Source: Thermoproteota archaeon
Lineage (GTDB): Archaea; Thermoproteota; Thermoprotei_A; EX4484-217-1
DNA: 64,000 nucleotides
NCBI GenBank assembly: GCA_029258915.1
Contig: JAPDJU010000002.1
Span: forward strand, 124,001 to 188,000
Direction of reading: 5' to 3'
Part shown: positions 3,973-32,985 of the stretch, one piece after another
Position numbering within the stretch: position 1 is the first letter of the stretch
Layout of the letters: each line of letters opens with the position of its first letter
Notes under the pieces: generated by a model
Database searches by the model: none
What the model saw: the letters and a program-made list of their open reading frames with translations, nothing else
Told to the model about the DNA's origin: nothing
Program-made: the position numbers and the translations under genes

Positions 3973-4336
3973 CGATTCCCAAACTATCGTGCAATAATAT
4001 TCCATGTTTAAGCATTTGAAGAACAAGCGGATCGTTTAGTTCATCCTTTTCTAAAACTATAAGGTCTAGATTAAAACCCTTAGGTTTGTATTTTCTAGCT
4101 TCCTTAATAAATTCGAATTTATTATTAATTTCCTCTAAAATAATCACTACATCATAGTCACTATATGGCAATGGTTCACCTTTAGCTCTACTGCCTATAA
4201 GAACTATTGATATCTTAGGAAAACTATCTATTAACCTTTTAATATATGTTTTAAAGTACTCTTCTCTTCTTTTCATCTTCTCTTCAGCTTTTCTTAGAAA
4301 CTTCCTTCTTAACCCACTTAATGATTTCTTTTGCAT
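3956..4336 (-). CDS. MNT-type nucleotidyltransferase (HEPN partner)
   Basis: A 126-residue minimal nucleotidyltransferase of the pol-beta superfamily. The signature GSRAKGEPLPYSDYDVVI gives GS followed by D-x-D, the metal-binding acids, and a third acidic strand appears at NLDLIVLE. It overlaps the 3' end of the HEPN gene by 53 bases and follows it on the same strand, the usual HEPN-first order. In characterised pairs the MNT protein adds AMP to a tyrosine of the HEPN toxin and neutralises it. A later Met at about residue 21 is an alternative start, which would remove most of the overlap. Chromosomal HEPN/MNT pairs are common in thermophilic archaea, and activity is not provable from sequence alone. 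Confidence 0.8.
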   Translation of the reverse strand: MQKKSLSGLRRKFLRKAEEKMKRREEYFKTYIKRLIDSFPKISIVLIGSRAKGEPLPYSDYDVVIILEEINNKFEFIKEARKYKPKGFNLDLIVLEKDELNDPLVLQMLKHGILLHDSLGIAKYLK

Positions 4337-28774: not shown

Positions 28775-28805
28775 TTTAAATATAATGGTAGTAAATTTTA
28801 CTACC
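28775..28805 (+). promoter_or_regulatory. Promoter and palindromic operator of the RHH / aspartic-protease-like pair
   Basis: A TATA-like TTTAAATATAA occupies 28775-28785. Right after it is a perfect palindrome, GGTAGTAAA-T-TTTACTACC, at 28787-28805 (two 9-base arms around one T). With the usual 25-base spacing, transcription would start at the right edge of the palindrome, about 10 bases before the ATG at 28816. A repressor bound here would cover the start site. Ribbon-helix-helix proteins bind such inverted repeats as dimers of dimers and often autoregulate; this is inferred, not shown. Confidence 0.7.
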
Positions 28806-28815
28806 AGGTAGGAAT

Positions 28816-29079
28816 ATGGGTGTTCGTAAAGTTAGTGTAAGCTTACCTGAGGATATGTTAAGAAAAATAGATGAAATAGCTTTAGAACTCGGTATTAGTA
28901 GAAGCGAACTCATAACATGGGTTTTAGAGGAAAAGTTTGGTAAAAGAAGAGTAAAAGAGGAAAGATATCCTACAGCTCTTTGGCGTCTAAGATCTGTTGG
29001 TTATTTAAAATATAGGACTCCAAGGTATCCATATAGGAGGATTAGAGGGGATTGGATAGTAGAAGAGATAAGAGAATAA
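28816..29079 (+). CDS. Ribbon-helix-helix (CopG/Arc-type) DNA-binding protein
   Basis: An 87-residue protein. The beta strand RKVSVSLPEDMLRKIDEIA and helix LGISRSELITWVLEE form a classic ribbon-helix-helix fold. The basic C-terminal tail (TALWRLRSVGYLKYRTPRYP) is unusual and may contact the partner or DNA. An aggtagg SD precedes the ATG. The last 28 bases overlap the start of the aspartic-protease-like gene, so both are made together, as in toxin-antitoxin operons. A palindromic operator sits directly upstream. Confidence 0.82.
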   Translation: MGVRKVSVSLPEDMLRKIDEIALELGISRSELITWVLEEKFGKRRVKEERYPTALWRLRSVGYLKYRTPRYPYRRIRGDWIVEEIRE

Positions 29080-29501
29080 TTTTCCACTATATTAGTGCTG
29101 GTTTTACACATTTTGGAGAAAAAATAGCAGAAGTTCCTGTAATAAGCTTAGCAGTAAAAGCCGGTAAGAAGAGAGCTAGAGGATTAGCAATAATAGATAC
29201 GGGATTTGATGGAGGAATATATCCTAATATACAAGTACTAGAGATTCTTGAAGGGTTAAAACCTGAAAGAACAGTTTACCTTGAAAATCCCCTTTACGGA
29301 TTATCTGAATTTGAAATATATAGTGTTGATACTTTCATCTACTATAATGGAGAATACATAGGATTAGGGGAAGCTAAAGTGTATGCACCAACGCAACCTG
29401 AAATGGTTTCAGAAGAAGTAACCATTGGTAGAGAATTTTTAAACAAATTTAAACTGGTTTTAGATCCTGTAACCAAGGTTGTAATTGTAGAAATACCTTA
29501 A
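29052..29501 (+). CDS. Retropepsin-like (clan AA) aspartic protease-family protein paired with an RHH regulator
   Basis: A 149-residue protein with a TTG start inside the end of the RHH gene. The core AIIDTGFDGGIYP contains the D-T-G active-site triad of clan AA aspartic peptidases. The later VTIGREFLNKFKLVLDP matches the (I/L)GxxFL..F.L..D ending seen in single-domain retropepsin-like proteins. Such proteins act as homodimers. RHH antidotes normally pair with RNases; a protease-like partner is unusual. It could cleave the regulator or another target, or have no peptidase activity. Family assignment is good; biological role is unknown. Confidence 0.7.
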   Translation: MDSRRDKRIIFHYISAGFTHFGEKIAEVPVISLAVKAGKKRARGLAIIDTGFDGGIYPNIQVLEILEGLKPERTVYLENPLYGLSEFEIYSVDTFIYYNGEYIGLGEAKVYAPTQPEMVSEEVTIGREFLNKFKLVLDPVTKVVIVEIP

Positions 29502-32472: not shown

Positions 32473-32922
32473 TTACTCACTATAGGTTACTTTCTTTACG
32501 AATTTCATTTTAGTTAGCGCTTTAAGTTTAGCTATATTTTTAGGTATAACAACTTCGTTTACAAAAACTATGGAGTGCACTTTCTTGTTAAAGGTTTCTA
32601 AATCTACTGTATTATCAAATATTAGTTTTTTAATGTTTCTAAACCTTACCCTACCTTCAACACTTTCAAGGTCACTTTTAGACACTGTTAATTCATCTAA
32701 GTCTCCTACAACAACTGTTTTTAACGTTGTTTCTACTCCTTCTCTCATTTTCTGTACTAATTCGTAGGATCCTTCAGCTAATGATAAAAAAACTCTTAAA
32801 GCTTCGTTAATTACTTCACCGACAGTTTCACCTATAGATCTAGCTAAAGCTGATGCTTTAGCGTAAAGTTCTTCATCTATATTCCTTATTGTAATAGTTT
32901 TCTTCTTTTTCTCCTCAGACAT
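32473..32922 (-). CDS. Ribbon-helix-helix domain protein with extra C-terminal domain
   Basis: About 149 residues from the ATG at 32922, placed seven bases after a ggtga SD; a GTG at 32931 lies inside that SD. Residues 8-50 (KTITIRNIDEELYAKASALARSIGETVGEVINEALRVF) fit a ribbon-helix-helix or coiled regulator. The C-terminal 100 residues alternate short strands and helices and include FVNEVVIPKNIAKLKALT. No partner gene is adjacent on this strand. A DNA-binding role is likely, the target unknown. Confidence 0.6.
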   Translation of the reverse strand: MSEEKKKKTITIRNIDEELYAKASALARSIGETVGEVINEALRVFLSLAEGSYELVQKMREGVETTLKTVVVGDLDELTVSKSDLESVEGRVRFRNIKKLIFDNTVDLETFNKKVHSIVFVNEVVIPKNIAKLKALTKMKFVKKVTYSE

Positions 32923-32985
32923 GTATGTCACCTATGTAATACTTGTAATACATATAATATAAGCTTTACTGTTCAAGCTGGGAAA

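Follow-up and report, generated by a model that had tools for sequence, protein, structure and literature searches.

A Thermoproteota archaeon (Thermoprotei_A; EX4484-217-1) carries a gene for a ribbon-helix-helix (RHH) protein overlapped by a gene for a retropepsin-like aspartic protease, a pair that lies behind a palindromic operator. The initial annotation had described a toxin-antitoxin (TA)-like architecture with a protease-like partner; the layout of RHH gene, protease gene and operator holds and recurs in distant archaea, and for its function we tentatively favour an autoregulated type II TA-like module, in which the protease may take the position of the toxin and the tail of the RHH protein may bind and restrain it. 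The window, the whole stretch of DNA analysed, comprises 64,000 nt (assembly GCA_029258915.1, contig JAPDJU010000002.1, positions 124,001-188,000, forward strand), and all coordinates are positions within these 64 kb. The locus under study occupies 28775-29501 and is flanked by a trpB-like gene and, on the opposite strand, by a gene for mannosyl-3-phosphoglycerate synthase, both assigned with Pfam.

The promoter region begins with the TATA-like element TTTAAATATA (28775-28784, + strand), recognised as a TATA box from the start, and a T/A-rich run occupies the same place before the operator at many orthologous loci. The operator itself, TGGTAGTAAATTTTACTACCA (28786-28806), is a palindrome positioned over the expected transcription start. 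It is perfect, as first described, but its length is 21 bp rather than 19, with the form TGGTAGTAAA-T-TTTACTACCA, that is, perfect 10-bp arms around a single base. The core, GTAGTA-N5-TACTAC, places the half-site centres 11 bp, or one helical turn, apart; in Arc/CopG-type operators such a distance would let two RHH dimers sit on the same face of the DNA. Perfect palindromes with arms of at least 10 bp number two in the 64 kb, the operator being one of them, compared with about 0.1 in base-shuffled windows. The other is TAATAAATTCGAATTTATTA, at 4105-4124. Between the operator and the first gene, GGTAGG (28808-28813, +) may be an RBS-like element or a third half-site, judging from its promoter register and from GGTRGTA in orthologues.

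Both genes proposed initially are present, including the overlap of 28 bases. The first (28816-29079, +) encodes an 87-residue CopG-type RHH protein that matches Pfam RHH_1 above the cut-off (E=2e-8, 34.3 bits against 20.5) and belongs to a 13-member family; AF2 predicts helices at residues 12-25 and 29-41, with a core pLDDT of about 80. Its C-terminal tail, residues 51-87 (28966-29076, +), reads YPTALWRL...RTPR...GDWIVEE. The second gene (29052-29501, +) encodes a 149-residue single-domain protease of clan AA from a TTG codon. The catalytic DTG, within a DTGFDGG motif, lies at 29196-29204 (+), and the hydrophobic-hydrophobic-Gly motif of the clan, IGREFL, at 29424-29441 (+); the DTG and GRE columns are invariant in the protease family. 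No RNA element was found in the locus region, and PADLOC returned no match of note. A comparison with empty sites gave nothing: the closest genomes that were searched, from the same genus, family and order, contained no match to either flanking gene.

The reading of the DTG and the IGREFL ending as signs of a clan AA protease proved correct. Against NCBIfam TIGR03698 (clan_AA_DTGF) the protease scores E=1e-4 and 22.3 bits, below the cut-off of 57.35, which makes it by sequence a relative of that family and not a formal member; no Pfam family was matched. A profile-profile comparison (hhalign) that set six orthologues against seven TIGR03698-type proteins gave 98.2% and E=5e-14, and aligned IGREFL with the LxGREL of the TIGR03698-type proteases. 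The AF2 model (pLDDT 80.5) found aspartic and retropepsin-like proteases as its best Foldseek matches in a viral library (E 3e-5, TM 0.62) and, weakly (E 0.4-0.5), Rv0977 and the EIAV protease in the PDB; a sequence search of the PDB with the protease or its profile found nothing. Because of the profile-profile match and the predicted fold we regard the retropepsin identity as firm. TIGR03698 and COG5550-like proteases share the motifs (DTGF...G, LxGREL) and a related fold, and the window clade differs from them by its below-cut-off score, by an N-terminal extension of ~25-30 residues and by its own type of partner. The TTG is the likely start. Since ATGA/GTGA-type overlaps mark the start in orthologues that share the frame type of the window, the true start could lie nearer the RHH stop, at a rare start codon.

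Orthologues of the protease were sought in 84,980 species and in 398 genomes of the phylum. They share 41-51% identity with it and come from further archaeal lineages within the phylum, whose records bear the names Brockarchaeota, Bathyarchaeota and Thermoproteota. A wide gap, from 4e-29 to 7e-4, separates them from the next matches. After merging of duplicates, 12 loci with an intact protease were counted, and the same RHH gene lies directly upstream, overlapping or abutting, in 12/12, amid unrelated flanking genes. The lack of any recurrent pairing elsewhere, which would have spoken against the initial proposal, is thus not what we observe. Two overlap arrangements are found across the loci, of about 4 bases or about 28-50 bases. 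RHH and protease distances are correlated (Mantel r=0.78, 0/5000 permutations), and in the only close pair dN/dS is about 0.14 for the protease and 0.20 for the RHH protein, so that this pair is under purifying selection. HEPN/nucleotidyltransferase or nucleotidyltransferase genes, of the kind typical of TA loci, adjoin five loci. The distribution is patchy and the flanks vary among loci.

RHH genes are common in such archaea, as are TIGR03698-type proteases, and the two genes could in principle have come together by chance, the protease-like ORF having no relation to the RHH gene and the palindrome being accidental. This is barely credible in view of the gene order kept in all the intact orthologous loci, the correlated divergence of the two proteins and the conserved operator; moreover, on a tree of 134 proteases the difference between partnered and unpartnered members amounts to one change. 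We rejected chance adjacency on the recurrence of the pair.

Conservation of the operator was assessed upstream of the RHH start at 13 loci. Matches to GTAGTA/TACTAC with free spacing gave a summed score of 128, a sum that counts the window's own 12/12, the consensus being derived from the window; dinucleotide shuffles gave 104.8 +/- 2.8 (maximum 113 in 1000) and the region further upstream 95. Taken singly, 6/13 loci beat their own shuffles at p<0.05, and 10/13 score at least 9/12 with a fixed 5-bp spacer. Across the genome the pattern shows no excess, with 149 sites against 157 for a reversed control, and a second perfect site sits within an ORF. Self-regulation is therefore the simplest reading: from the conserved operator and its position, the RHH protein would repress its own operon via the palindrome.

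Within the RHH protein, conservation is highest in the tail, which has a mean pairwise identity of 0.56 compared with 0.39 for the rest, which includes the DNA-binding part, and 0.49 for the protease. Its consensus from residue 51 is YPTxLWKLxxxGxLRLRSPRxxGRxIxGxWVVEE. When the RHH protein is modelled alone with AF2 the tail has a pLDDT of about 32, that is, it is predicted to be disordered. It is also rich in Arg/Lys and could bind nucleic acid. Among the 398 genomes, all 15 RHH proteins with a full tail stand at loci of this pair, the protease there being intact, damaged or missing; one further RHH protein (L163) has a diverged tail and stands without a protease, and the remaining RHH matches cover only the first 45-70 model positions.

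Loss within the window clade was seen on one side only. Six further loci keep the RHH gene with the protease damaged or gone: in L047 the protease is truncated and carries NTG, in L048 it is interrupted by a stop that could be a sequencing error, in L155 it is reduced to a C-terminal remnant, in L161 it is deleted in frame across the core, and in L158 and L162 it is absent. The truncated gene of L047 runs into CRISPR-repeat-like sequence; a Cas6-like gene (weak Pfam match) lies upstream there. No intact protease without an RHH partner was found among the window-clade loci. The asymmetry is suggestive only, because the six losses represent about four independent events (three fall in one genus and two in another), with two-sided p values of 0.03 for 6:0 and 0.125 for 4:0. 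The initial annotation had named loss of the DTG in homologues as evidence against its proposal; all intact members of the window clade that have a partner retain the motif, which within this clade is lost only in the truncated L047, and in the wider partnered group there is an NTG pair in Sulfolobaceae-like genomes (L004/L005). In this sister pair the RHH protein is truncated only where the protease carries NTG (L004), and the RHH gene is whole in L005. At L004:98-1324 a transposase-like gene lies just upstream of the truncated partner. A partial exception is L019, in which the RHH domain is lost, the DTG is intact and the C-terminal part of the partner remains.

For function, the initial annotation had put forward regulated proteolysis of the RHH protein or a new class of stress module, both still conjectural. 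How the two proteins would work together may be pictured as follows. Two dimers of the RHH protein would occupy the palindrome over its promoter, repressing the operon, and the disordered tail would bind the co-translated protease and hold it inactive, perhaps as a pseudo-substrate lying across the active site of the protease dimer. Degradation or titration of the RHH protein would open the promoter, and free protease may then attack cellular proteins. This TA-like reading is supported by a tail that, as in many type II antitoxins, is predicted to be disordered and that is the most conserved part of its protein, and likewise by the invariable pairing, the correlated distances, the operator with no excess elsewhere in the genome, the one-sided loss, the HEPN/MNT neighbours and purifying selection. 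It is weakened by the finding of no copies on plasmids, phages or viral contigs.

The same genetic logic is found in pairs of an Xre regulator with a COG2856 Zn-protease, and we consider it possible, if rather unlikely, that the present pair works as ImmR-ImmA or DdrO-IrrE do: a protease activated by a signal would cut the RHH protein, probably in or near the tail, and derepress the operon and possibly other genes, with no need for toxicity. The conserved, disordered tail would make a good substrate, the catalytic DTG is retained in intact members, and the unrelated partners of the wider family, described below, share only a C-terminal domain and tail before the protease. However, a cut site needs no conservation over about 37 residues, an operator with no genomic regulon leaves little to derepress besides its own operon, and a protease with the RHH protein as its only substrate predicts equal loss either way. 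We favour restraint over cleavage, since of the two genes the protease alone is seen to be lost by itself and the operator shows no sign of a regulon. The near-universal intact catalytic motif would be just as expected of a protease with a dedicated substrate, and the step at which the protease meets the RHH tail is common to the TA-like and ImmA-like readings. Tails retained in RHH genes after protease loss may have a different function.

Sequence searches of class and phylum genomes gathered 142 TIGR03698-type proteins. Those of the DTGF kind lie behind an overlapping or abutting gene in 60/65 cases, and those of the DTGA/DSGA kind in 8/54. The RHH-tail group forms a single fully supported clade inside the partnered part of the 134-protein tree. 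Elsewhere the preceding gene encodes one of several kinds of protein: RHH proteins whose C-terminal part resembles DUF5678 (with weak support from Pfam), CRISPR ring nucleases (NF040951, APE2256/CARF; E=6e-202), Csx7-like type III RAMP proteins with an extra C-terminal segment (L006, L014, L015, L017, L063, L089), or a lone or tandem domain of roughly 45 residues (L027, L066, L067, L075). The ring nuclease gene is followed directly by the DTGF protease gene, usually with an overlap, in eight genomes of one family (L009-L013, L016, L023, L061), and we found no paper linking a ring nuclease with an aspartic protease in the open-access literature. The lone domain of L027 matches the ring nuclease C-terminus at 4.5e-8. 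What the partners have in common is not a DNA-binding domain but a C-terminal segment that immediately precedes the protease gene; homology among these segments is demonstrated only between the ring nuclease and the lone domain. The shared segment favours a protease that acts directly on, or is restrained by, the C-terminus of its partner.

Other pairs and relatives were noted as well. The genome that contains the window encodes a second RHH-like and clan AA protease pair on contig C7 (L002:1057-1833), with the genes abutting in one frame. A clade of retropepsin-like proteins in which NSG (or SSG) replaces DTG (L037:2308-2730, reverse complement; L133, L083, L114, L115) is probably inactive. 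Within the window, 32473-32931 on the minus strand encodes a protein of 152 aa that begins with an RHH/VapB-like stretch at its N-terminus and matches none of the listed families above the cut-off.

An extra C-terminal part before the protease gene in ring nuclease, RAMP, RHH and lone-domain partners would also fit a non-toxic role, in which the protease constitutively matures the C-terminus of its partner, or assists it as a chaperone or in dimerisation, with the RHH protein as an ordinary regulator. A precedent is RimB, a clan AA protein and the dedicated partner of the co-operonic RimK, which it binds and regulates in Pseudomonas (PMC12239564). That the protease was lost repeatedly while the RHH protein and its tail stayed argues against obligatory maturation, and an ordinary regulator sits poorly with the absence of any operator excess elsewhere in the genome; we judge this role improbable. 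RimB and RloA of Pseudomonas are likewise single-domain clan AA proteases with operon partners, which are ATP-grasp and transglutaminase-like proteins; unlike here, neither has a DNA-binding partner (PMC12239564).

Under the favoured TA-like reading the closest parallels are type II TA systems with RHH antitoxins (CopG/FitA/VapB/BrnA), which likewise consist of a small overlapping two-gene operon with the RHH gene first, a predicted disordered C-terminal tail and a palindromic operator over their own promoter, and show patchy distribution, HEPN/MNT neighbours at several loci and one-sided decay. In contrast, their toxins are RNases, kinases or gyrase poisons and the second protein here is a retropepsin-like protease; compared with type II antitoxins, the RHH tail is also unusually well conserved. 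ImmR-ImmA and DdrO-IrrE likewise combine a repressor gene with a small protease gene, and cleavage of the repressor is possible in both cases, but they pair an Xre protein with an HEXXH zinc protease, with no ancestry shared with an RHH protein and a clan AA aspartic protease. A 2009 survey of type II TA systems treats the Xre and Zn-protease pairs and documents that ImmA inactivates ImmR by proteolysis; searched by word, the survey contained 'aspart' once, no retropepsin and no aspartic protease pair (PMC2701414). In the open-access literature we found no description of an RHH and aspartic protease pair, nor of an aspartic protease in connection with toxin-antitoxin or CARF.

These pairs may reflect a general archaeal design, a retropepsin-like protease restrained by the C-terminal domain or tail of the preceding protein, with swappable fronts (RHH, cyclic-oligoadenylate-binding ring nuclease, RAMP or none). 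We hold this generalisation to be doubtful; if true, it would be, as far as we have found, the first effector family, TA and CRISPR-linked, to be based on an aspartic protease. To our knowledge hardly anything is known about the roles of single-domain retropepsin-like proteases in archaea, and one clade of them now has a defined partner, a candidate segment for binding or cleavage and an operator. A toxic protease would represent an enzyme class that we did not find among the type II toxins described so far, and a protease that cuts the RHH protein would be the equivalent of ImmA/IrrE among aspartic proteases. For type III immunity, the same question is posed by the sister pairs with ring nucleases.
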